A DNA stretch of 64,000 nucleotides, taken from Rufibacter tibetensis. Its GTDB lineage: Bacteria > Bacteroidota > Bacteroidia > Cytophagales > Hymenobacteraceae. Positions 6,001 through 18,962 of this stretch are shown here, one piece after another. Position numbers and translations under genes: made by a program. The stretch covers positions 3,145,501 to 3,209,500 of the forward strand of contig NZ_CP012643.1 in the NCBI RefSeq assembly GCF_001310085.1, read 5' to 3'. The notes beneath the pieces were generated by a model, which saw only the letters and a list, made by a program, of their open reading frames with translations, was not told the origin of the DNA and ran no database searches. How positions within the stretch are numbered: position 1 is the first letter of the stretch; the number at the start of each line of letters is the position of its first letter.

Positions 6001-7041
6001 TTCGGGACCGACGAGGAAGAAACCGAGGAACTGCTGGTAGAGTCTTTGTTGCAGTTAAGTGCATTGCACCTGCCGCAGACGCTGCTTTCTGAGCATTATC
6101 GCAGCCAGTACCCAGAACTGATTCAGTTCTCTAACCGCAACTTCTACCGTGATAAACTGCAGCTTATCCCTAAGCTGGAGGCCATGAACACTACTAAGCC
6201 TGCGCTGCAGTACCTCAAAGTAGACGGCGTCTGGGAAAACCAGACCAACCGGGTAGAGGCTGAACGCGTGCGGGATCTGGTCTTTGAACTCATCGCCAAA
6301 GGAGAAACCAACATTGGCGTGATCACCTTCAACTTCCCGCAGCAGCAGTTGGTGCAGGATTTACTGGAAGAGCAGGCCCTAACCCAAAACGTGAAACTCC
6401 CCGAGGAACTCATCATCAAAAACATTGAGAACATTCAGGGCGATGAGCGGCAATACATCATTTTTTCTATTGGCTACGCGCCAGATGTCTCGGGCGTGGT
6501 ACGCGCCATGTTCGGAAGTCTGAACGCGGCCAAAGGCGAGAACCGGTTGAACGTGGCCATTACGCGGGCCATCAAAAGGGTGTACGTGGTGACCAGTTTG
6601 TGGCCAGAGCAATTCCCTACCGAGAACGTGAAACACCCTGGCCCCAAGTTGCTGAGAGAGTACCTGGCCTTTGCGCGGGAGGTAAGCGAGAACGGGTTTA
6701 CGCCCCAACCGTCGCCGGCTACCAGCATCCCGTCGGCGTTGTTATTGTACCCCACGTTATTGGCTCAGTTTGGGCAAAATAGTACAAAAACCGAAATGTC
6801 GTTAGAACTTCCCTTTGCCGACCTTACTTTCCGCAACGGCAATAGGTACGAGGCCGTAGTATTAACCGACGACGATTTGTACTTCCGCCGACCTTCTGCC
6901 AAGGCCTCTCATGCCGACGTGCCCCTGCGTCTCAAAGCCCGGGGCTGGAAATTCGGGGCCGTGTACAGTCGTCAGTTCTGGAGCCAGCCCAAACAGGTTT
7001 GGCAAAAACTAAGCGAACTGTCCCAAAAAGATGAAAGATAA
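3046..7041 (+). CDS. Large superfamily 1 DNA/RNA helicase (DUF4011/UPF1-like AAA_11-AAA_12 type)
   Basis: This 1331-residue protein should be an ATP-driven nucleic-acid helicase or translocase. The N-terminal ~270 residues (RRLLNLSGSNRSLVLL and following) resemble the DUF4011-type start of bacterial UPF1-like helicases. Walker A, GPPGTGKS, is at residues 317-324. A long Gln/Leu/Glu-rich, probably coiled-coil insertion (about 380-900) splits the ATPase core. The DEAS Walker B is at 947-950, GDEQQLGPS follows at 971, and the motif VI region NRLNVAITRA is at 1166-1175. I see no nuclease motif in the C-terminal tail (about 1230-1331), although many relatives carry a VSR-like nuclease there. The stop overlaps the next gene by 11 bp, so the two are probably cotranscribed. 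Related enzymes occur both in housekeeping and in defence loci; nothing nearby settles which applies. Confidence 0.85.
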   Translation: MPNPRTPLPHLLKQYQRRLLNLSGSNRSLVLLKPSASLHLDLHALDHAHKGPSYDYVKDLLAGKQNIILCEVADARDAALASLTKSLKTIQRRAHMIWEERGAKELFVGWPFVEGAFPDGTLVRCPLLFFPVELRVNEKRQWQLVRQEDTPAFFNKSFLLAYAHYLNLTPDEALMEEDFDEFPSDDLQFRTKLYELLKESNVKINFNQELLKDLLQPYKAYKREDLEKSWKPGQLKLQPEAVLGIFPQAGSYQLADYDDLLENPPVESLEELLLPQVEVNAVHAQLEQQLFTAFDADASQEAALRQVKSGQSVVVQGPPGTGKSQLICNLVSDYLARGKSVLVVCQKRAALDVVYQRLSTTGLDQFSALVHDLNLDRPAVFSKIRYQIEQVEEYQRQNVALGNIQAERQFLETSRHINQISERLNSLKEALFDTHTCGWSPKELYLRSNPRAPHISAEGIYRHFTATTWQEWRPRLLHYLQDAVLLHNSDFPWNDRRSFHLHTWAERQKLTQLLTQIPATAQATAAQVQPLLPLQAEPWDALQALLQELPTLQALQEALRDKAVSRLFFGNLAQIKDQKQRETQLAQLQKDTEATQTKLSHAEAQQLTQLLAAYDQAHSGFMGKIQWAFSSDKKKLAAFAESKHLSNPDTAVEHLRASLKSWEALQAQWKNLQVLEPTLAIPADFFGTEAVQEGEALQRAWEQRKTLQRLMTYDVLPDELLQLSSERFQTLFTETLPKLQQLQHELLEWERWLMPSQIETIATNPAATQELTQSLSEHFDRMVSFDALVHTFFPELKAWLTELRMTMPESVEAQLQALENSVLLAWLQQLEGQNPVLTIVSTGELERLETELQEKIKQKADLSRQIILLNLREQTYKNMEYNRLGNPVTYRRLLTQVSKKRMLFPLRKLNAEFGEEIRQLLPCWLASPETVSALFPLERIFDLVIFDEASQCFAEVGIPAMIRANQAVIAGDEQQLGPSDLYRVRFGTDEEETEELLVESLLQLSALHLPQTLLSEHYRSQYPELIQFSNRNFYRDKLQLIPKLEAMNTTKPALQYLKVDGVWENQTNRVEAERVRDLVFELIAKGETNIGVITFNFPQQQLVQDLLEEQALTQNVKLPEELIIKNIENIQGDERQYIIFSIGYAPDVSGVVRAMFGSLNAAKGENRLNVAITRAIKRVYVVTSLWPEQFPTENVKHPGPKLLREYLAFAREVSENGFTPQPSPATSIPSALLLYPTLLAQFGQNSTKTEMSLELPFADLTFRNGNRYEAVVLTDDDLYFRRPSAKASHADVPLRLKARGWKFGAVYSRQFWSQPKQVWQKLSELSQKDER

Positions 7042-7954
7042 ATTACTGGAAATCACCGCAGGTTTGTGTCTTCTTATTGCCGTAGCCTGTGACTCTGGCG
7101 CGGCCAAAACAGAAGAAAGCTCCGCAGACCTTACTGAAGAAGAAGGAAAGAAAAAGAAAGACAAGAATCCGGCCTCTGAAGGTTTTGAAGTGAACCACAA
7201 CTACGATCTGCTGGAAATGAGCAAGATGGGTAAAAAGTCCGTGCCTGAAAGCTCTGGCCTGGAAGCCTCGGCAGACGGCCATTTCTGGACCCACCCAGAT
7301 GCCGGAAACGAAGCAGTTCTGTACAAGATCAATGAATCTGGCGAGCTGCTGGAAACCATGAACGTGCAGGGCGCCAGGAACACGGACTGGGAAGACGTAG
7401 CCCGCGGCTCAGACGGATTCCTGTACATTGGCGACATGGGCAACAATGAGAACACCCGCCAAGACCTCCAGATTCTGAAGGTAGACGAAAAATCTAAAAA
7501 GGTAGTAGGAACCATTCCGTTCAAATATGCAGACCAGACGGAGTTTCCGCCATCAAAGAGCGGTTTGAACTTTGACGTGGAAGGTTTTCTTATGCACAAC
7601 AACGCCTTCTATCTTTTCACTAAGAACCGTGGCAAAGGCGACTGGGTGAAGCTTTACAAAGTAGCCAACCAGCCTGGCGCCTCCCAAACCGTGACTGCCT
7701 TGGACAGTGTGCAAATCACTACGAAAATCACCGCCGCTGATATTTCACCAAATGGCCGCCACATTGCCCTTCTGGGTGAGGGTTGGGCGTATTTGTTTGA
7801 AGCAGACAACCCAGAGCAAGTGTTCAAAGGCAAGAAAGAACAAATTCCTCTAGGCAAAGTAGGCCAGGCCGAAGGGCTCGTTTTTGTCAATGACACTGAT
7901 ATGATGATTTCCAACGAAGCCGGTCGGTTGTTCATGCTGAGCTTGAAGAAGTAA
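7031..7954 (+). CDS. Beta-propeller-like lipoprotein
   Basis: The 307-residue protein has a lipoprotein signal: a hydrophobic segment ending LLIAVAC, with the lipidated Cys at residue 20. A charged linker (EEEGKKKKDK) and a propeller-like domain follow. The domain contains the motifs ESSGL, TDWEDVARG, YIGDMGNN and SPNGRH. The same order of motifs occurs in the product of 57281-58168 (SDWEDLTRD, YIGDMGNN, SPDGRH), so the two are paralogues. It is probably anchored in the outer membrane or facing the periplasm. The ATG lies inside the last codons of the helicase gene (11-bp overlap), which suggests translational coupling. The molecular function is unknown. Confidence 0.75.
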   Translation: MKDKLLEITAGLCLLIAVACDSGAAKTEESSADLTEEEGKKKKDKNPASEGFEVNHNYDLLEMSKMGKKSVPESSGLEASADGHFWTHPDAGNEAVLYKINESGELLETMNVQGARNTDWEDVARGSDGFLYIGDMGNNENTRQDLQILKVDEKSKKVVGTIPFKYADQTEFPPSKSGLNFDVEGFLMHNNAFYLFTKNRGKGDWVKLYKVANQPGASQTVTALDSVQITTKITAADISPNGRHIALLGEGWAYLFEADNPEQVFKGKKEQIPLGKVGQAEGLVFVNDTDMMISNEAGRLFMLSLKK

Positions 7955-8118: not shown

Positions 8119-8155
8119 GTAAGCGGTTTTTCTCCATTATTTCAATTTGTACAGC

Positions 8156-9025
8156 ATGTCTAAGATCATTTTAGTGACCGGCGCCACGGGTACTGTAGGT
8201 TCTGCTACCGTAAAGGCGCTTTCGGCGTTAGGTGCAAACGTAAGGGCTGGCGTACATTCCCTTATAAAAGGAGATAACCTGAAACGACTGCCCGGCGTGG
8301 ACCTAACGGAAATTAATTTCTCCAGACCAGAGAGCCTAGCGGTAGCCTTCACAGGCGTAGGTACCGCTTTTCTTATTACACCGTTTGCCCAGGACCAGGT
8401 AGAGATGGCGCAACAACTGGTTGATGCCGCCAAAGCCGCCGGGGTGAAGCACGTGGTCAGGCTCTCAGTGATTGGGGCAGACGCAGAACCAGGCATCCAG
8501 ATTGGAAGATGGCATCGGCAAGCCGAAGAATATTTAAAATCTTCGGGGTTACCCAGCACCATGCTTCGGCCAAGTGGGTTCATGCAGAACTTCACAAACC
8601 AATATGCGCCTACCATCAAAGAAAATAACGTCTTTTACCAGCCCAACGGAGAGGGCCGTGCCGGTTACATTGATGTGCGGGATATTGGCGCAGTAGCGGC
8701 CCATGTCTTAATGAACCCCTCAGAGCACACGGGTATGGCCTATACGCTTACCGGCCCTCAGGCGCTTTCAGGAAATGAAGTAGCGGAAATCTTTACCAGA
8801 GTCCTTGGCCGACCAATCAACTACATGGATGTACCCGAAGATACTGCCCGTACGGCCATGCAACAGCAAGGGCTACCTGAGTGGATGACGGAAAGCTTGC
8901 TGGAACTAGGCGCTATCACCCGCGCTGGCTATACTTCAGGGTTAACCAGCACAGTAAAGGAATTGATTGGGAAGGAGCCCTATACCTTTGAGGAGTTCCT
9001 GGAAGCTCACAAACACTGTTTCTAA
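8156..9025 (+). CDS. NmrA-family NAD(P)-binding oxidoreductase
   Basis: The 289-residue protein is an atypical short-chain dehydrogenase of the NmrA/QorB type. These bind NAD(P)H and act as quinone reductases or redox-sensing regulators. The Rossmann glycine motif VTGATGTVG lies within the first 20 residues. The mid-region HVVRLSVIGA and the sequence GYIDVRDIGAVAAHVL are typical of the family. I chose the ATG at 8156 (MSKIILVTG); a TTG three codons upstream (8147) is possible but unlikely. Its gene is monocistronic and is followed by a 20-bp-arm inverted repeat. The substrate cannot be told from sequence. Confidence 0.85.
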   Translation: MSKIILVTGATGTVGSATVKALSALGANVRAGVHSLIKGDNLKRLPGVDLTEINFSRPESLAVAFTGVGTAFLITPFAQDQVEMAQQLVDAAKAAGVKHVVRLSVIGADAEPGIQIGRWHRQAEEYLKSSGLPSTMLRPSGFMQNFTNQYAPTIKENNVFYQPNGEGRAGYIDVRDIGAVAAHVLMNPSEHTGMAYTLTGPQALSGNEVAEIFTRVLGRPINYMDVPEDTARTAMQQQGLPEWMTESLLELGAITRAGYTSGLTSTVKELIGKEPYTFEEFLEAHKHCF

Positions 9026-9039
9026 ACTATCAGAAATCT

Positions 9040-9105
9040 AAACGGCTAGGTCCTGCTTTAAGGCTGATTTTCCATAATCAACCCCAAAGCAGGACCTAGC
9101 CGTTT
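9040..9105. terminator. Long perfect inverted repeat (20-bp arms)
   Basis: The arms at 9040-9059 and 9086-9105 are perfectly complementary (AAACGGCTAGG and its reverse complement). The 26-nt loop resembles the dispersed motif on the minus strand. It lies directly after the NmrA-type gene. Confidence 0.8.
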
Positions 9106-9137: not shown

Positions 9138-9173
9138 AAAAAGCCCCGTTGATAACAACGAGGCTTTTTGTTT
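9138..9173. terminator. Hairpin terminator with A and T tracts on both sides
   Basis: AAAAAGCC(C)CGTTG and CAACG(A)GGCTTTTT flank a 4-nt loop, with one mismatch. It lies 20 bp past the stop of the minus-strand low-complexity gene and would end its transcript. Confidence 0.8.
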
Positions 9174-9192: not shown

Positions 9193-11346
9193 CTAGTCAC
9201 GATCTTCATCTCTTGACGAAGAACCGCCTCTAGATGAACGTCCGCCACGGTTATGGTCATTGGAGTGGTCATCATGACCTTGGTTAGTACGGCCGTATTG
9301 TGAACGGTTCTCGTAGCCAGATCCGCCGCCACCGTAAGAAGACTGTCCACCCTGGCTGCCGTAGCCGCCACGTGAACCCATGCCGCCGGTAGAAGAAGAA
9401 CCATATCCGCTGGAGCCGCCGTAGCTGCTTCCGCCTTGGCCGTAGCCGCCCATGCCGTAGTCACGGCTTTGGTCGCCGTAACCACCGCCGGTAGAAGAGC
9501 CACCATGGCCGTGCTCATGACCACCGTTACGTGAGCCGGTTCCAGATGAGCCGTAACCCCCGCGTGATCCCATGTCATTGCCCATGTTACCATAGTTAGA
9601 TCCGCCGAAGCTTCCTCCACCATGACCACCTTGGCCGTAGCTGCTGCCTTGTGAGCCGTAACCGCCGCCACCATGAGAGGTGCGTGAACCAAAGTCACCA
9701 CCTTGTGCATTGTGGGTGCTGTAACCACCTTGGCCGCTGCCACCGCTCATAGAGCCATAGCCGCTGTTGTCATTGCCACGACCGCCACGTGAGCCGCCGC
9801 CACCACCTTGCCACTCATTGTTTCCGCCCATAGATGAGCCGTAGCCACCTCGTGAGCCCATATCTGATCCAGAGGAGCCACCGTAACCACCACGTGACCC
9901 CATGCCTGAGCCTGAAGCTCCGCCGTAGCCGCCTCTTGAGCCCATGTCATGTGAGCCGTAGTTGCTACCACCCTGACCTCCCTGGTTCTGGGTGCTGTAC
10001 CGGGTACCTCCTTGGCTGTAGCCACCATCGTAATCAGAGTTTCCATCGTAGCCTTGGCCACCACGGGAAGAACCGCCACGTGAGCCGTATTCTTCGCTGT
10101 AAGAACCGCCTCTGGAGCCCATAGCGCCATAATTGCCGCCTTGCTGGTTGCTGTAGCCCTGGCTGTATCCACCGTGGCCGCTGCCTTGACCTCCGCCACC
10201 GTGCATGCCGTAGCCGCTTTCAGTGCCGTAGCCCATTTGGTTTCCATAGTAGCCAGAGCCACCGTAGTTTGAATATCCGCCGCGGTCAGACTCTGAACGG
10301 CTGGAGTTACCGGCGTACCCGCCTTGTGAGCTCATGCCGTATGGGTTGCTGCCCATGCCTGAGTTTCCGCCGTAGCCGCCTTGTGCACCGTGGTTTCCAC
10401 CACCTCCCATGGAGCCGCCGTAGCCACCCTGGCCATAGTTAGAACCGCCCTGGTTGCTGTTTCCGCCGTAGCCGCCTTGGCCGTAGTTAGAACTTCCTTG
10501 CGAGCCGCCGTAGTTTCCGCCGCCCATAGAGCCATAACGGTTGCTTTGGTCATCATGGTTGTTCCAAGAGTTGCCACCGCCAAATGAGCCGCTATTTCCC
10601 TGCGATCCGCCGCCGTAACCGCCCTGACCTCCGCCATAGTTGCCACCGCCTTGTGAGCCGTAGCCACCTTGGTGACGGTCATCGCCCTGGTTTCCGCCGC
10701 CGCTGATACCGCTCATAGATGAGCTGCTCTGGTTGCCGGAATCCCCGCCTTGTGAGCCACCGTAGCCCATGCCACTGCCCATAGAAGCAGAAGAGCCTGC
10801 CATTGAGTTATTGGTAGAATCTGAAGAGTCATCTGAAGAGCCAGAAGTTTTTCCTGACCCGGATTTATCTCCTGATGATTTTGCTGTAGTGGAAGATCCT
10901 GCTTTAGAACCTGCCTTTGGAGTGGAAGAAGTGGCACCGGTTGCAGTTTTGCTTCCACCATTTTTCTTACCTGAAGAGCTATCTGAAGTAGAAGAAGTGC
11001 CTATTTTACCAGTAGAAGAGCCGCCCATGCCAGAAGTTGTGCCCCCAGTGGTTCCAGATCCTGAAGCTCCAGACGTTCCTGCACTTGAACCGCTTGTGCT
11101 ACCTAAGCCGGAAGTACCTGTGCTACCTGACCCTGTAGTTGACCCGAATCCTGATCCACTTGAACCGGTAGAGCCAGGGGTTGAACCAGCACCACCCTGT
11201 GAACCAGTAGATCCAGGAGAAGAAGTTCCTGCGTTTGAGCTTGTGCCCATACCACCCGATGAAGAAGCGTTAGTTCCTGTGCTGCCACCAGAACCAGTTG
11301 AGGAGCCCTGATTATCTTTTTGTTGCTCTTTTTGATTTTCGTTCAT
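9193..11346 (-). CDS. 717-residue Gly/Ser/Tyr/Arg low-complexity protein, RGG/FUS-like
   Basis: No globular domain, signal peptide or membrane segment is visible. Residues 1-16 are polar and charged (MNENQKEQQKDNQ). About 15-210 are Gly/Ser/Thr/Ala-rich. From about 210 to 680 the chain is built of short degenerate Gly-Tyr-Ser-Asn-Gln units. MGSRGGYG occurs five times, YGQGGYGG twice, and there are many SRGG, GYGG and NYG variants. The last ~40 residues are charged, with RGG-like units and the ending SRDEDRD. This composition matches eukaryotic prion-like/RGG domains (FUS, hnRNPA1) rather than a bacterial enzyme family. The start follows a strong AAAGGAG at 11355-11361. The product is probably cytoplasmic and disordered. 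A role in condensation, RNA binding or stress is only inferred from composition. Confidence 0.75.
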   Translation of the reverse strand: MNENQKEQQKDNQGSSTGSGGSTGTNASSSGGMGTSSNAGTSSPGSTGSQGGAGSTPGSTGSSGSGFGSTTGSGSTGTSGLGSTSGSSAGTSGASGSGTTGGTTSGMGGSSTGKIGTSSTSDSSSGKKNGGSKTATGATSSTPKAGSKAGSSTTAKSSGDKSGSGKTSGSSDDSSDSTNNSMAGSSASMGSGMGYGGSQGGDSGNQSSSSMSGISGGGNQGDDRHQGGYGSQGGGNYGGGQGGYGGGSQGNSGSFGGGNSWNNHDDQSNRYGSMGGGNYGGSQGSSNYGQGGYGGNSNQGGSNYGQGGYGGSMGGGGNHGAQGGYGGNSGMGSNPYGMSSQGGYAGNSSRSESDRGGYSNYGGSGYYGNQMGYGTESGYGMHGGGGQGSGHGGYSQGYSNQQGGNYGAMGSRGGSYSEEYGSRGGSSRGGQGYDGNSDYDGGYSQGGTRYSTQNQGGQGGSNYGSHDMGSRGGYGGASGSGMGSRGGYGGSSGSDMGSRGGYGSSMGGNNEWQGGGGGSRGGRGNDNSGYGSMSGGSGQGGYSTHNAQGGDFGSRTSHGGGGYGSQGSSYGQGGHGGGSFGGSNYGNMGNDMGSRGGYGSSGTGSRNGGHEHGHGGSSTGGGYGDQSRDYGMGGYGQGGSSYGGSSGYGSSSTGGMGSRGGYGSQGGQSSYGGGGSGYENRSQYGRTNQGHDDHSNDHNRGGRSSRGGSSSRDEDRD

Positions 11347-11400
11347 GGTTAAATCTCCTTTGTTTTTGGTTAAAGAATGGTAAGTTGGAATACCCTGCTC

Positions 11401-11429
11401 CTGAAAATAAAGTCATGCTTATTTTTCAG
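11401..11429 (-). promoter_or_regulatory. AT-rich hairpin in the leader of the low-complexity gene
   Basis: CTGAAAATAA (11401-11410) pairs with TTATTTTTCAG (11419-11429) with a single bulge. In the transcript it would sit between the stop of the 8-codon leader ORF and the Shine-Dalgarno of the main gene. Confidence 0.5.
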
Positions 11430-11438
11430 GACAAGTGT

Positions 11439-11465
11439 TTATACTATACGAACGGGTGTTTGCAT
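11439..11465 (-). CDS. Possible 8-codon leader ORF (MQTPVRIV)
   Basis: An ATG at 11465 is preceded by AAAGGAG (11475-11481) with a 9-nt spacer, and the ORF ends in TAA at 11439. The context AAAGGAG-spacer-TTAACC-ATG repeats that of the main gene downstream, AAAGGAG-ATTTAACC-ATG. The likeness in a phylum with few Shine-Dalgarno sites makes chance less likely, but such a short ORF is unproven. Confidence 0.4.
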   Translation of the reverse strand: MQTPVRIV

Positions 11466-11635
11466 GGTTAACGGCTCCTTTGTGATTTTTTAATCAAGAA
11501 AGATTTAATAGGAGTTTATTTCTAAAGGGATTAGAAGAATCTAAGGTGTTTTTGCGAAAGTGATTACAAAGCGTTCTAAAGGAAGATGTAGAATTCTAGT
11601 TTAGTTTTAATTTTAAAGTTTTGCCTATACAGAAA

Positions 11636-11745: not shown

Positions 11746-12867
11746 TTACATAATCACATCTCTGGTTGTAGAGGCAGTATTTGAGTTTAAACTTGTGGGG
11801 GTAGGGTCCACTTCCAACTTGTTCATTAACTCCTCTGCATCTTCCTTTTCTTCCTGATCTGGTTCTGGCACATCATGTTCATCTGCCTCTAAGGGCTCAT
11901 AGTTTAACCTGATGAAGATAGGGAAGTGATCTGAGCCAAAGAAAGGCAGGCGTTTCATTCTGATAAGCCTGAACGCTGGATCATAAAAGATATGGTCTAA
12001 TGAGTACCTAAAGAAAGGAACAAAGGCATTATAGGTGTTGTAGAAACCACGGCCTATGCGCGGATCCAGCAGACCACTTATCTTCCGGAAAAGGTTGGTA
12101 GTATAAGACCAGGCCACATCGTTCAAATCTCCCACCACAATGCTGGCGTATGGTGACTCCTTGGCCATTTTGGCTACGGTAAGCAGTTCCGTCTCACGGG
12201 TGTCTGTGTCTTTGTGTAGATGCGGTGGCTGCGGGTGTACCGTGAAAAGGTCAAAAATCTTCCCGGTGGGTAACTCAACATGCATGTAGAAAGAAGGAAT
12301 TCCTTCCTCCACCAAATACCTGACTTCAGTATGGGTAAGCTTGAACTTGCTAAAAAACATCATTCCGTAGGTGTTTTCCAGAGGTTCTTTTATGCAGTAG
12401 GGGTACCGGTCATCCAGTTCAGAAATAGCGTTTGCCCACGCATGATTGGGTTCATTGACCAGCAATAAGTCTGGATCAGTATCTTTCACTACCTTCAGGA
12501 AGCGGTCAAAGCGCTTGTTAGACATCCTGACATTGGAAATCATGATCCCGAAAGAGTTCTTAGGGGCTTTAATCTTAGAATGGAGTGCCTGCGCCCGTAC
12601 GAAGGGGGTGAATTTGTACACGTGCGCCAGCTCATTCACAATAGCTAATACCAGCAGTCCTGCAAAGATTTTTTGGGTCACTAATTCATACCCATACAGA
12701 TATCCATAAAGCCCTAAGATAAATGTACCCAATACCGCTACCTGAACCCTTGGAAAATCCAGGATCCTTATCCACCAGTAGGTGCTTTTCACTAGCGTGA
12801 GAAGTGACGCCAGCACAACAAAGCAACCAAGCAGCTCAAGGACAATTTTCATAAGGCAGAATAGCAT
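11746..12867 (-). CDS. Membrane-anchored endonuclease/exonuclease/phosphatase (EEP) family protein
   Basis: The 373-residue protein begins with about three hydrophobic helices (residues ~5-85). An EEP-fold domain follows, recognised by SNVRMSN, VNEP, TVHPQPP, GDLNDVAWS and the terminal GSDHFPI. These are the metal- and phosphate-binding positions of the DNase I/sphingomyelinase-like superfamily. The domain should face one side of the inner membrane and cleave phosphodiester or phosphoester bonds; the substrate is unknown. The C-terminal ~50 residues are acidic and probably disordered. The start is uncertain: MLFCLMKIV offers an ATG at 12867 or 12852, and neither has a ribosome-binding site. 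The gene stands alone between two hairpin terminators. Confidence 0.8.
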   Translation of the reverse strand: MLFCLMKIVLELLGCFVVLASLLTLVKSTYWWIRILDFPRVQVAVLGTFILGLYGYLYGYELVTQKIFAGLLVLAIVNELAHVYKFTPFVRAQALHSKIKAPKNSFGIMISNVRMSNKRFDRFLKVVKDTDPDLLLVNEPNHAWANAISELDDRYPYCIKEPLENTYGMMFFSKFKLTHTEVRYLVEEGIPSFYMHVELPTGKIFDLFTVHPQPPHLHKDTDTRETELLTVAKMAKESPYASIVVGDLNDVAWSYTTNLFRKISGLLDPRIGRGFYNTYNAFVPFFRYSLDHIFYDPAFRLIRMKRLPFFGSDHFPIFIRLNYEPLEADEHDVPEPDQEEKEDAEELMNKLEVDPTPTSLNSNTASTTRDVIM

Positions 12868-13023: not shown

Positions 13024-13512
13024 CTATTCAGTTGCTTTCTCTACGCGTACCCCAATGGCCATGATGCCGGGTAAGGGGTCCTGGCGCATGTATTGGTTCA
13101 GCCTGATCTTGTATTGACCAGCCCTCTGGAACCGGATGTTTTTTAGCCCCCTGAACTGATGGTCAAAAATATCTCCGGCACCTTTGCCTTTGGGTTCACC
13201 GGTTTTGGGGTCCATGAGGTACATTTCATGCAGCATGGAGTTCACTTGCTGTCCATCTGGGCCAATAAGGTAATGCCGCAGGTACAGGTTGTAGAACGGG
13301 TAATGCAGCGCGTTGCGTACGTTGAAGAAGACGTTGTAGGCTTGGGTGGTGTCTGTCACCTCAAACGCAAACGTAGGAGACAACCTCACCGGCCACTGGT
13401 TATCAGGAATGTCCTGCACTTCTTCAAAGACCCGGTTGCTGTCACAACTCCCTAAAAACAAACCAAGGCTTAGCAAAAACATGAAAAGGGGAAAACGCTT
13501 TCTCATGATCAT
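13024..13512 (-). CDS. gldH: Gliding motility lipoprotein GldH
   Basis: The 162-residue protein matches the GldH family, lipoproteins needed for gliding and type IX secretion in Bacteroidota. A signal peptide ends in a lipobox (LFLGSC). The mature part begins with acidic, Asn-rich sequence. Typical family stretches follow, including a YNLYLRHYLIGPDG segment and a C-terminal RLNQYMRQDPLPGI. The start overlaps the upstream ricT stop as ATGA (ATG at 13512, TGA at 13511-13509), so the two are translationally coupled. A second ATG at 13506 is a possible alternative. The RicT-GldH pairing recurs in Bacteroidota, as far as I recall. Confidence 0.85.
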   Translation of the reverse strand: MIMRKRFPLFMFLLSLGLFLGSCDSNRVFEEVQDIPDNQWPVRLSPTFAFEVTDTTQAYNVFFNVRNALHYPFYNLYLRHYLIGPDGQQVNSMLHEMYLMDPKTGEPKGKGAGDIFDHQFRGLKNIRFQRAGQYKIRLNQYMRQDPLPGIMAIGVRVEKATE

Positions 13513-15188
13513 CCTTCGGTTTGAGGGACTGGAGCGGCGCCTTCTGCCCCACCTGGTTTGCGGTTACGGTTATTCCGGTTGCGGTTTCGGCGGCTGCGTT
13601 GCTCTCCCTCCGGACGTGGCCCACGTTCTGCCCTTTCCGGTGCTGCCACGGCACTTGAGGCCGGTGCCTGCGCGCTTATAGGCTGTGGCTTGTTTTGCGG
13701 CGGACGCTGGTTCTGAGAACGGTCTTGGCGCGGAGGGCGATTGTTGTCTCTAGGCCCACGGTTCTGGTTTTGATTCTGGTCACGCTCCGGACGAGGCTCC
13801 CGTTCTGGGCGCGGTTCGCGTTCTGGACGGGGCTTGCCTTGCGGCGGCTGACCCTTTGCTTGTGCCTCACGTTCTGGTTTGGGCGGACGGTTCTCGCTTC
13901 CTTCTGGTTTGTTGCCCCCGCGCTCTGGCTTAGGCCTGCGCTGCTCGCCGGAAGATTTGCCGGTAGGCTGGTCTCTGCGAACCTCTGGGGTAGGAGCAGC
14001 CTGTGCCAATACCTCCGTAGCCGTGGCCACGTTGCCACTGCCTTTCTTTTTCTTGCTGCGCTTTTTCTTTGCTTTGTATTGCTCGTCTAAGCGGTCCAGG
14101 TTTCCTTCCAGGGCTTCTACAAAGTCTACCACTTCTGGTAGTTGCTTTTTCACCTCCTCAGCCAGGTTTTCTGGCATTTCACCGGCGGCGTTCATTTTAA
14201 GCACTTCGTGCACACGCTCTACCGTTACCGGAAACCAGTTGCTGTCTCCACGGTACCCGAACCACATGATGCGGCGGAAGATGTCTGTCTTCTGCAGGAA
14301 GGCATCCCCGGCTTTGGTTTGCAGCGGACGGTTCACGTTAGGAATGTCCTTCAGCGCATCCATGTAGGTTTCCAGCTCATAGTTGAGGCAGCACTTAAGG
14401 CGCCCGCACTGGCCAGAAAGCTTACTGGGGTTTAAAGACAAGTTCTGGTAACGCGCCGCAGTAGTAGAAACGCTTCTGAAATCAGTGAGCCAGGTAGAGC
14501 AGCACAGTTCCCGTCCGCAAGACCCAATACCGCCCAATCGCCCGGCTTCATGCCGAAGGCTGATCTGGCGCATCTCAATTCTTACCTTGAACTCCTCGGC
14601 CAGTTTTTTGATCAGTTCCCTGAAATCTACCCGGTCATCGGCAGAATAGAAGAAGGTGGCTTTGGTTTTATCGGCCTGATACTCTACGTCTGAGAGTTTC
14701 ATCTTGAGTTTCAGCTCCTGCACAATGGCACGGGCCCGGTACATGGTAGCCGGTTCCTGCTCGCGGGCGAGGTTGAACTTTTCCATGTCTTTCTCAGTGG
14801 CCACGCGGTAGATGCTCCGGATCTCCTCATTGTTCTGGACCTTCTTTTTGTTCATCTGCAGGCGCACTAACTCGCCTTTCAATGACACGTGTCCAATGTG
14901 GTGCCCATTAGGCACATCTACTACCACGGCATCGCCGGTGATGAGCGGAATACGATTAATGTTCCGGAAAAACTCTTTGCGACCGCCTTTGAAGCGTACC
15001 TCTACTATATCAAACTCTTTAAAAGACACGGGAATTTCCATGTCTGAGAGCCAATCAAATACATTTAATCGGTTACAGCCTCCCGTGCTGCAACCGCCGT
15101 TGCTTTTGCAACCCGCCACTACCTCAGTGCCATCGGCAGAGGTGGTTTTGGTGCCGCAGCCGCCACTAGAACATGAACTACATCCCAC
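13509..15188 (-). CDS. ricT: PSP1-domain protein RicT (YaaT) with long disordered tail
   Basis: The first ~340 residues form the PSP1/RicT core. The RicT cysteines are present in the segments GSCGRELCC (C224, C229, C230) and GQCGRLKCC (C261, C266, C267); in Bacillus these bind an iron-sulfur cluster in the RicA-RicF-RicT (Y) complex, which helps RNase Y. A second Cys group sits at the N terminus (C3, C6, C11, C27, C33, C38). From about residue 390 to 559 the protein is a low-complexity Pro/Arg/Glu/Gln/Asn tail with PRPERE repeats and Arg-Asn clusters, well beyond the Bacillus protein and suggestive of RNA binding. The gene is first of a two-gene operon with gldH. Function in Bacteroidota is less certain than family membership. 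Confidence 0.85.
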   Translation of the reverse strand: MGCSSCSSGGCGTKTTSADGTEVVAGCKSNGGCSTGGCNRLNVFDWLSDMEIPVSFKEFDIVEVRFKGGRKEFFRNINRIPLITGDAVVVDVPNGHHIGHVSLKGELVRLQMNKKKVQNNEEIRSIYRVATEKDMEKFNLAREQEPATMYRARAIVQELKLKMKLSDVEYQADKTKATFFYSADDRVDFRELIKKLAEEFKVRIEMRQISLRHEAGRLGGIGSCGRELCCSTWLTDFRSVSTTAARYQNLSLNPSKLSGQCGRLKCCLNYELETYMDALKDIPNVNRPLQTKAGDAFLQKTDIFRRIMWFGYRGDSNWFPVTVERVHEVLKMNAAGEMPENLAEEVKKQLPEVVDFVEALEGNLDRLDEQYKAKKKRSKKKKGSGNVATATEVLAQAAPTPEVRRDQPTGKSSGEQRRPKPERGGNKPEGSENRPPKPEREAQAKGQPPQGKPRPEREPRPEREPRPERDQNQNQNRGPRDNNRPPRQDRSQNQRPPQNKPQPISAQAPASSAVAAPERAERGPRPEGEQRSRRNRNRNNRNRKPGGAEGAAPVPQTEG

Positions 15189-17294: not shown

Positions 17295-17795
17295 TTAGTA
17301 TCCCCGGTCTCTTCTTTTCTTGGCTCTGTAAAAGGCAACAAACCCGTAGGCTATAATGGCAGTTACGGCCATTTGCCTGATCACTCCAGAACGGTTGTGC
17401 TTCCATTCGGCTTTCATGCCTTTTTCAGCAAAGATGTTAGGCACAATACCGCTTCTAAGGTCTTCAATGATTCCTTCCACCACATTGATGCGGTCTGCCA
17501 GAATCAGAGGTAGCCAGTGACCGTAATCGTTCTCGCTTTTCTTGAAGGCCAGGCGTCTGATCATACCGCTCAATCCCGATGGTGGGGTAGAAGTCCCAAA
17601 AACAGCAGTTACGTTGGGCCGCTCAATGGAGTGGAGCACCTCTACCGTTTCAGGTTGTAAGGTGGGTCTAGTCCAGGAATAGCCCATGTGCTCGCCGTTG
17701 TTGCGTTTTTTCATGGGATACGTGGGGTCATTCTTCGGATCGGCATCTATGCCCCATCCCTTGATGTGCGAATAGTCATTCGTTATATTTTCCAT
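17295..17795 (-). CDS. Conserved-looking protein of unknown function, partner of the alcohol dehydrogenase
   Basis: I do not recognise a named domain in this 166-residue protein. The N-terminal half is hydrophilic (DYSHIKGWGIDADPKNDPTYP and onward). The middle holds PNVTAVFGTSTPPSG and DYGHWLPLILADRINVVEG. Near the C terminus, QMAVTAIIAYGFVAFYRAKKRR looks like one membrane helix with a basic inside end. The start is set by AAAGGAG at 17803-17809 with a 7-nt spacer. That Shine-Dalgarno overlaps the stop codon of the upstream dehydrogenase (17808-17810), so the two genes form a tightly coupled operon. Function is unknown. Confidence 0.7.
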   Translation of the reverse strand: MENITNDYSHIKGWGIDADPKNDPTYPMKKRNNGEHMGYSWTRPTLQPETVEVLHSIERPNVTAVFGTSTPPSGLSGMIRRLAFKKSENDYGHWLPLILADRINVVEGIIEDLRSGIVPNIFAEKGMKAEWKHNRSGVIRQMAVTAIIAYGFVAFYRAKKRRDRGY

Positions 17796-17807
17796 GGCGT
17801 TTCTCCT

Positions 17808-18962
17808 TTACATTCCGGCTGATGGTGAAATAAGAACAGGTTTGATGCAGTTGTCCAACTTGGCTGAGAAGATGCGGTAGGCATCAGAAACTTCTTCCAA
17901 CGGGATGCGGTGCGTGATAAGCGCTTTAGGATTCAGGACTCCATTTTGCACGTGCTCAATCAATCTAGGCAGCAGGCGTTTTACGGAAGCTTGGTTTGCC
18001 CTGATGGTGATGCCTTTGTTTAGCACGTTCCCGATAGGTACCAGGTTGTCAGTAGGACCGTAAACCCCCACAATAGAAACAATTCCACCTTTCTTAACTG
18101 AGTTGATGGCCCAGTGAAGCGCGGTGGCAGAACCTGCCTGTAACAGCAATTTTCTACCTGTTATGGTTTGCATGGCGTTACCGGCGGCCTCGGCACCTAC
18201 GGCATCAATACATACATCAGCACCCATCCAGTCGGTCGTTTTCTTCATGAATACCACAGGGTCTCCTATTTCATTGAAATTGTAGGCCTCGCACTGAGCA
18301 TAGTTACGGGCAAACTCAAGGCGATAGTCCACCTGGTCAATGATGATCACCCGGCCTGCACCAAACAGCCACGAGCATTTAGCAGCCATAATACCTACTG
18401 GCCCGGCTCCAAATACTACTACCGTGTCACCTTTCTGAATACCGCCCATTTCAGCGGCCTGGTAGCCGGTAGGTACCACGTCGGTCAACAGAACGGCATC
18501 ATCTGGGTCCATGCCTTCTGGGATGACGGTTGGACCTACGTTGGCGTAAGGCACCCGGGCATATTCGGCCTGGCCACCATTATAGCCACCAGCGGTGTGG
18601 GAGTACCCGAAGATACCGCCTACGGCTGTGGCCTGGGGGTTGGATTCATGGCAGTTGCCGTACATTTCCTGCTTACAGAACACGCACTCGCCACAGGCTA
18701 TGTTGAACGGAACCAGCACGTGGTCTCCCACTTTTATTTTAGTTACTTCAGAACCAACTTCTTCTACTATACCGGTGAACTCATGCCCAAAGGTCATGCC
18801 CACACGGGTGTCTGGCACAGAACCGTTGTATAAGTGTAGATCAGATCCACAGATACAGGAACGGGTTACCCTTACAATAGCATCCTGGGGGTGCTCAATC
18901 TGTGGCATTGGTTTCTGGCTGGCCCGGACCCGTAATGGTCCTCGGTAATTCATTGCTAGCAT
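17808..18962 (-). CDS. Zinc-dependent alcohol dehydrogenase (MDR family; formaldehyde dehydrogenase-like)
   Basis: The 384-residue enzyme is a medium-chain dehydrogenase/reductase that oxidises alcohols or aldehyde adducts with NAD(P)+. The catalytic-zinc region is CICGSDLHLY and GHEFTG. The structural-zinc cysteines lie in CGECVFCKQEMYGNC. The dinucleotide-binding motif is VVVFGAGPVGIMA. Overall it resembles glutathione-independent formaldehyde dehydrogenase-like proteins and threonine dehydrogenase relatives. A strong AAGGAG at 18970-18975, 7 nt before the ATG, fixes the start; a second ATG lies three codons in. A 20-bp palindrome upstream (19029-19048) may be an operator. It is the first gene of a two-gene operon. 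Confidence 0.85.
   Translation of the reverse strand: MLAMNYRGPLRVRASQKPMPQIEHPQDAIVRVTRSCICGSDLHLYNGSVPDTRVGMTFGHEFTGIVEEVGSEVTKIKVGDHVLVPFNIACGECVFCKQEMYGNCHESNPQATAVGGIFGYSHTAGGYNGGQAEYARVPYANVGPTVIPEGMDPDDAVLLTDVVPTGYQAAEMGGIQKGDTVVVFGAGPVGIMAAKCSWLFGAGRVIIIDQVDYRLEFARNYAQCEAYNFNEIGDPVVFMKKTTDWMGADVCIDAVGAEAAGNAMQTITGRKLLLQAGSATALHWAINSVKKGGIVSIVGVYGPTDNLVPIGNVLNKGITIRANQASVKRLLPRLIEHVQNGVLNPKALITHRIPLEEVSDAYRIFSAKLDNCIKPVLISPSAGM

Follow-up and report, generated by a model that had tools for sequence, protein, structure and literature searches.

A putative hydrophilin-like stress protein, large and predicted to be disordered, is conserved across Hymenobacteraceae behind an ECF-like promoter box

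The analysis of a 64,000-nucleotide stretch of Rufibacter tibetensis DNA, referred to here as the window, revealed a gene for a 717-aa low-complexity protein that is conserved and had no match in the libraries searched. It probably encodes an undescribed stress-protection protein and not a chance repeat, and we propose, with a probability of about 0.6, that the product is a cytoplasmic hydrophilin-like stress protein working through weak multivalent contacts, a function suggested by the promoter context and the physics of the chain. Large prion-like proteins are, to our knowledge, thought of as mainly eukaryotic; here, a bacterial family, the radiation- and desiccation-tolerant Hymenobacteraceae, retains one at a constant position, downstream of a promoter of the stress type. 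The approximately 200 relatives share motifs but differ in form, some being long and G/Y/R-rich and others short, acidic, and A/P-rich; they provide a natural series for testing what a disordered protectant requires. The promoter also suggests a candidate regulon for general stress in the family. The gene and the main parts of its product are located as follows:

9193..11346, minus strand: coding sequence of the 717-aa disordered protein, from the ORF and its translation, with ATG as start
10207..10356, minus strand: near-invariant core, residues 331-380, a genus-level island defined by alignment and substitution rates
10081..10119, minus strand: family signature motif, residues 410-422 (GSRGGSYSEEYGS), defined by the GG-S-Y-x-[DE]-E-Y DNA pattern

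Translation confirmed the 717-residue ORF of the preliminary description, which gave no strand, and placed it on the minus strand. The repeats reported there, MGSRGGYG five times and YGQGGYGG twice, were counted with the same result, along with six copies of MGSRGG, 10 of SRGG, and 12 of RGG. The composition was 35.0% G, 21.5% S, 6.6% Y (47 residues), 6.3% N, and 5.6% Q, and the chain had two parts, with residues 1-190 rich in S/G/T/K and lacking Tyr and Arg, and residues 191-717 rich in G/S/Y/N/Q/R. Its sequence entropy, 3.05 bits, was the lowest among the 41 non-overlapping window ORFs of at least 150 aa, the next value being 3.96. Searches against Pfam (E values up to 1), NCBIfam, and PDB sequences gave no match, and the AlphaFold2 model, generated with 16 sequences, had a mean pLDDT of 37.4, with 700 of the 717 residues below 50 and no helix or strand element. 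Both results bear out the earlier view that no globular domain is visible, and the model supplies the disorder prediction that had been suggested as a follow-up. The first 60 residues contained no signal-peptide-like stretch (best 19-residue Kyte-Doolittle window, -0.45), and this absence of a hydropathy-based export signal agrees with the cytoplasmic location assumed before. Codon use differed from that of 31 window ORFs, with CGT at 0.64 versus 0.21 and GGG at 0.03 versus 0.17. A plus-strand acidic ORF of 180 aa (10769-11311), antisense to the N-terminal region, is most likely a side effect of codon use in the repeats.

NCBI taxonomy places Rufibacter in Hymenobacteraceae, Cytophagales. We compared six genus-level groups of this family, g1 to g6, where g1 is the Rufibacter group; from their numbers, g3 was taken as Pontibacter and g6 as Hymenobacter. 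When 59 relatives were searched by protein BLAST, the 717-aa protein was matched in 16/16 g1 genomes, its own included, with lengths of 620-756 aa, so the conservation in sister species that had been set as a test was observed; none of the 43 genomes outside this genus-level group was matched. The resulting picture of a genus-specific orphan was overturned by the promoter and by synteny beyond the genus. The exact promoter-box pattern had a single match in each of 14/16 g1 genomes and matched one genome of another genus, where the site sits before a 648-aa S/G/Q/Y-rich ORF. The gene order around that ORF also matched: RicT, GldH, endonuclease-family, disordered-protein gene, NmrA-like, the gene of the type found at 7031, and a helicase. 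In the window, the neighbors are:

11746..12867, minus strand: endonuclease/exonuclease/phosphatase family gene, the upstream neighbor (PF03372)
13024..13512, minus strand: gldH lipoprotein gene (TIGR03511 / PF14109)
13509..15188, minus strand: ricT gene, PSP1 domain (NF041131 / PF04468)
8147..9025, plus strand: converging NmrA-like NAD(P)-binding gene (PF05368)
7031..7954, plus strand: SdiA-regulated-like gene (PF06977 at 20.9 bits, just missing the cut-off of 21)

The endonuclease gene served as the guide for locus finding; it was matched in 21/21 family genomes outside the genus, and 16 regions were taken. A disordered ORF of 533-660 aa, with the AAC...CGTATA box, occupied the same place in 12/12 regions from g2 (n = 2), g3 (n = 5), and g4 (n = 5), and the other 4/16, from g5/g6, held only a distant endonuclease paralogue. 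The endonuclease-family gene adjoins the disordered-protein gene in g1-g4, including 10/10 loci of named relatives (nine Rufibacter records and Sabulibacter ruber), and was not found at the locus in 15 g5/g6 regions. RicT and GldH were beside the gene in 12/12 g2-g4, 15/15 g5-g6 (five g5 and 10 g6), and 10/10 named loci; the corresponding figures were 8/12, 7/15, and 8/10 for the NmrA-like gene, and 8/12, 12/15, and 10/10 for the SdiA-regulated-like gene. A profile built from 22 g6 proteins, and searched in the 204 family genomes only, matched 127 of them, comprising 119/120 from g6 and 8/8 from g5. By joining motif pattern, profile, BLAST, and synteny, the last inspected in 38 loci with the window included, about 200 of the 204 family genomes carry the gene. 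Judged from these sequences, it turned out to be an old gene, single-copy and at a fixed place, nearly universal in Hymenobacteraceae, with products of 294-756 aa. Pfam and NCBIfam searches of the 22 g6 relatives gave no family, and nothing on this protein was found among the literature matches listed, in a coverage that leaves out most subscription journals.

The following elements precede the start codon:

11444..11471, minus strand: putative alternative-sigma (ECF-like) promoter, TTAACC...CGTATAG, from the box aligned in orthologues
11398..11432, minus strand: 5' leader hairpin, directly past the promoter box, from arm length compared with shuffles
11355..11361, minus strand: Shine-Dalgarno sequence AAAGGAG, conserved in g1-g3, in a phylum that rarely has one

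The CGTATAG and AACC-type (TTAACC-like) box aligned upstream of the gene in 16/16 g1 orthologues, and the only AAC-N16/17-CGTATA site in the window was the one upstream of the 717-aa gene. Upstream regions from six genera, 55 in all, were searched to about 250 nt from the start: 53 contained AAC-N16/17-CGTA, against a mean of 1.7 and a maximum of 5 in 200 shuffles, and 41 contained AAC-N16/17-CGTATA, against a shuffled mean of 0.14 and a maximum of 2; the g6 regions contributed 20/22 and 8/22, respectively. The two misses, L128 and L131, both from g6, contained CGTATA without the spaced AAC. We take the bipartite AAC/CGT shape, with its 16-17 nt spacing, to be ECF-like, and an alternative sigma factor of this kind may transcribe the gene along with other general-stress genes.

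A regulon claim based on site counts was discarded, since the sites were no commoner than reversed controls: AAC-N16/17-CGTATAG gave 7 versus 8 in the own genome and 21 versus 38 in four relatives, and TAAC-N16/17-CGTATA gave 10 versus 16 in the own genome. Test and reversed sites differ in position and gene content only. With genes called by a simple ORF rule, 6/7 AAC-N16/17-CGTATAG sites of the own genome were intergenic and 5/7 had a same-strand ORF starting at most 250 nt downstream; the four relatives gave 16/21 and 13/21, and the reversed pattern 5/28 and 2/28. The pooled comparison of sites at most 250 nt before a same-strand ORF was 18/28 versus 2/28, or 13/23 versus 2/28 once the sites of the disordered-protein gene itself were subtracted, and Fisher values for it overstate independence, because related genomes share sites and the genome sets are unequal (the own genome and two of the relatives, G000, G003, and G010, for reversed sites; these plus G012 and G013 for test sites). 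All 10 TAAC-N16/17-CGTATA sites were intergenic, and eight preceded an ORF, one of which (L227) is probably spurious. Besides the 717-aa gene, the sites of the own genome preceded genes for a second disordered protein, for a WrbA-like FMN reductase and a GAF-domain protein, and for two proteins each of the DUF892 (YciE/F-like) and DUF4142 families. In every one of the four relatives, one or more ORFs following the box resembled DUF892 proteins by eye; the box there also preceded a YdjM gene and, in two genomes, a gene for a FAD-NAD(P)-binding protein. Some sites lie within ORFs or match no stress gene. DUF892 and WrbA genes belong to the general stress response in other bacteria. The stress-like genes behind similar boxes thus give the set a general-stress look, and we regard them as candidates for co-regulation with the 717-aa gene. 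None of the adjoining ORFs looked like an ECF gene by eye, and no report of a Hymenobacteraceae ECF stress regulon was among the literature matches listed. The second low-complexity protein has 454 aa, is rich in Gly/Ser/Asn, and carries a C-terminal GFFGRITHGIRDAWNSIAG stretch (L233:79-1440; C1 near 3992187, minus strand); its gene lies 61 nt behind a like promoter, and the product has no Pfam family.

The alignment of the 16 g1 proteins showed variable repeat blocks plus near-invariant islands. Of the earlier expectation that composition would be conserved and repeats would vary, the variation of the repeat blocks was upheld, but some islands were nearly invariant. Between species pairs, residues 331-380 had 0.031 nonsynonymous versus 0.326 synonymous differences per site, and residues 1-190 had 0.437 and 0.284, respectively. 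The low nonsynonymous and high synonymous difference of the island indicates protein-level selection and not recent DNA copying, and this purifying selection, together with the presence in 16/16 g1 genomes, argues that the ORF is more than chance. The motif GGSYN[DE]E[YM] was common to 12/12 g2-g4 proteins, and GGSY-[NSGD]-[DE]-E was present in all the 50 proteins scored (16 from g1, 12 from g2-g4, and 22 from g6). At the DNA level, the GG-S-Y-x-[DE]-E-Y pattern had one match in each of 122/204 family genomes, distributed as 15/16 in g1, 0/2 in g2, 47/50 in g3, 8/8 in g4, 5/8 in g5, and 47/120 in g6, and the reversed control gave one match in total; the g2 motif ends in NEEM and is hence outside the pattern. 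Among 390 genomes of the order, the pattern was found in 45/79 from the family and 0/311 from the others.

The same 50 proteins were all hydrophilic (GRAVY below -1; -1.19 in the 717-aa protein), contained more than 6% Gly (12.5-35.0%, the upper value being that of the 717-aa protein), and lacked Cys. Their net charge spanned +6 to -33 and their Tyr content 3.2-9.2%, with 3.2-4.1% in the 13 short g6 forms. The number of RGG was 8-16 in g1 and 0 in 11/22 g6 proteins, and 15/22 g6 proteins were strongly acidic (net charge of -21 or lower), with 0-2 RGG and the motif kept. Since RGG number and net charge vary across the family, neither RGG nor positive charge is a conserved trait, unlike short motifs, glycine, hydrophilicity, and disorder, which the family retains. 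For one of the short g6 relatives, of 294 aa, an AlphaFold2 model made with 22 sequences had a mean pLDDT of 43.3. Two forms were observed in g6 (L115-L136), a long near-neutral one, rich in G/N/R/Y, of 504-543 aa, and a short acidic one, rich in A/P/G, of 294-341 aa; both have identical motif order, and there are two acidic intermediates of 425-428 aa.

This pattern of conservation favors the hydrophilin-like reading over a dedicated RGG RNA binder. The protein would remain unfolded in the cytoplasm, being very hydrophilic and glycine-rich with dispersed Tyr/Arg stickers, and would act as a protectant, probably via weak multivalent self-association into a condensate or gel, under water, cold, or oxidative stress. 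The conserved short motifs, GGSYNDEY and others, may dock a partner or seed assembly. Condensation is most plausible for the long Y/R-rich forms; a sticker mechanism common to all members is made less likely by the low Tyr content of the 13 short g6 forms. The protective role considered conceivable in the preliminary description fits the predicted disorder, the lack of an export signal, the conservation, and a promoter type common to stress-like genes.

Bacillus subtilis GsiB and Escherichia coli YciG are hydrophilic products under stress sigma factors, and YciG is encoded together with YciE/YciF. The DUF892 genes of the own genome, which have the promoter type of the 717-aa gene, provide a link to YciG; unlike GsiB and YciG, however, the protein had no KGG-repeat match in Pfam or NCBIfam, and its repeats and size differ. 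With LEA proteins, it shares hydrophilic disorder and, we suggest, stress protection, but no LEA Pfam family was found for the 717-aa protein or the 22 g6 members. Most of the known hydrophilins and LEA proteins have much shorter chains and a lower aromatic content. In the available text of PMC4190154, the hydrophilin criteria include Gly above 6%, GRAVY below -1, and a mean hydrophilicity above 1; for the hydrophilins of that study, values between -0.3 and 1 are reported there. The Gly and GRAVY values of the 717-aa protein lie within these limits, and its mean hydrophilicity was 0.13 (0.06-0.62 in the 50 proteins) on the Hopp-Woods scale, which may differ from that of PMC4190154. The Acinetobacter hydrophilins DtpA/DtpB, as described in the accessible part of PMC13232832, are likewise Gly-rich, very hydrophilic, predicted to be disordered, and placed in a stress context. 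In contrast to them, the 717-aa protein matches no Pfam or NCBIfam family, and the Hymenobacteraceae proteins have 294-756 aa, a family-specific motif, and, in the long forms, Tyr/Arg/Asn/Gln-rich parts.

Two other readings of the chain are unlikely. The first one is a FUS-like scaffold, in which RGG and Tyr-rich regions would bind RNA, perhaps with a cold-shock chaperone, in RNP bodies formed under cold or stress. In composition, G, S, Y, and Q with RGG, the 717-aa protein presumably resembles FUS/FET proteins and could show sticker-spacer behavior, and its 12 RGG and 47 Tyr are in line with this. Moreover, a divergent cold-shock-domain gene (PF00313) adjoins the disordered-protein gene in 34/34 loci of g2, g3, g4, and g6, i.e., 12 from g2-g4 (L054 and L085-L095) and 22 from the 120 g6 genomes, 15 found first and seven more with longer flanks. 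However, none of the five g5 loci and none of 11 Rufibacter-group regions, the window and the 10 named loci, has this gene beside the disordered-protein gene; the whole window contains none, and eight cold-shock-domain matches lie elsewhere in the own genome. Pfam showed no RNA-binding domain in the 717-aa protein or the 22 g6 relatives, and no RRM or zinc finger of the FUS/FET kind, and the acidic, RGG-poor g6 members have kept the motif. The RGG/FUS-like RNA binding put forward in the preliminary description was, therefore, not sustained, with RGG falling to zero and the charge reaching -33 within the family. The second reading, to which we also give a low probability, is a hub of short linear motifs, where the disordered chain would be mainly a flexible tether and the conserved motifs would recruit specific proteins. 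It draws on GGSY-[NSGD]-[DE]-E, kept in every protein scored, and on the motif order, constant in the 22 g6 proteins (RGEFG, T-GGY, NDN, RNQ, GGSY-DEY, NYG, and D-G), but repeat-like, composition-biased sequence makes up most of the chain.

The leader adds further signals. The hairpin arms of the 16 g1 leaders averaged 10.3 pairs versus 6.6 when shuffled, in a count that lets the position and one mismatch float, and 0/200 shuffles reached 10.3; the hairpin may stabilize the mRNA. The folding z, from single-base shuffles, was -3 or lower in 8/16 leaders and above -1.1 in 5/16 (L002, L009, L012, L013, and L014). A Shine-Dalgarno sequence preceded the gene in 15/16 g1, 2/2 g2, 5/5 g3, and 0/5 g4 genomes; among the 41 window ORFs, three had one when the first ATG was taken as start and four when any early ATG was allowed, the 717-aa gene included. 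The available text of PMC9976891 states that Bacteroidia ribosomes sequester the anti-Shine-Dalgarno and do not recognize these sequences, that bS21 loss boosts translation of reporters with strong ones, and that the regulated rpsU gene bears an exceptionally strong one. The strong expression that had been deduced from this element is, therefore, unsafe, yet three of the four genera scored have retained the element. Because that of the 717-aa gene is short, we treat the link to bS21 as a lead only. A broader and rather doubtful picture would be an ECF-type general stress response of Hymenobacteraceae, in which a giant sticker-spacer protein condenses the cytoplasm protectively, GGSYNDEY recruits a family-specific partner, and the Rufibacter-like Shine-Dalgarno is read under stress by altered, e.g., bS21-lacking, ribosomes. 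Ordinary ribosomes of the phylum would then ignore this gating sequence, and the disordered protein would be the most conserved, family-defining product. In the window, two adjacent genes (17298-18962, minus strand) both have a strong Shine-Dalgarno; one encodes a zinc alcohol dehydrogenase, the other a 166-aa product that Pfam does not assign to any family. A promoter shared by this operon and the 717-aa gene was looked for and not found.

A surface or gliding-related structural protein is very unlikely. Gly-rich repeats are known in some surface proteins, and gldH is nearby in all the g2-g6 and named loci inspected for it; nevertheless, the protein lacks an N-terminal hydrophobic stretch, Cys is absent from the 50 proteins scored, and the gene has its own promoter. 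Pfam and NCBIfam gave no match at all, and hence no secretion sorting domain. A non-functional repeat expansion translated by accident, to which the low complexity and the varying repeat number in parts would appeal, is hardly credible and is refuted by the selection on the core, the family-wide synteny, and the promoter box, unless the alignments are artefactual.

At the other end of the gene, directly past the stop codon, one more element was seen by eye:

9138..9172, no strand assigned: terminator-like hairpin flanked on either side by A/T runs

It comes after an inverted repeat at 9040-9105, also noted by eye, which has perfect 20-nt arms (9040-9059 and 9086-9105) and lies beyond the end of the NmrA-like gene.
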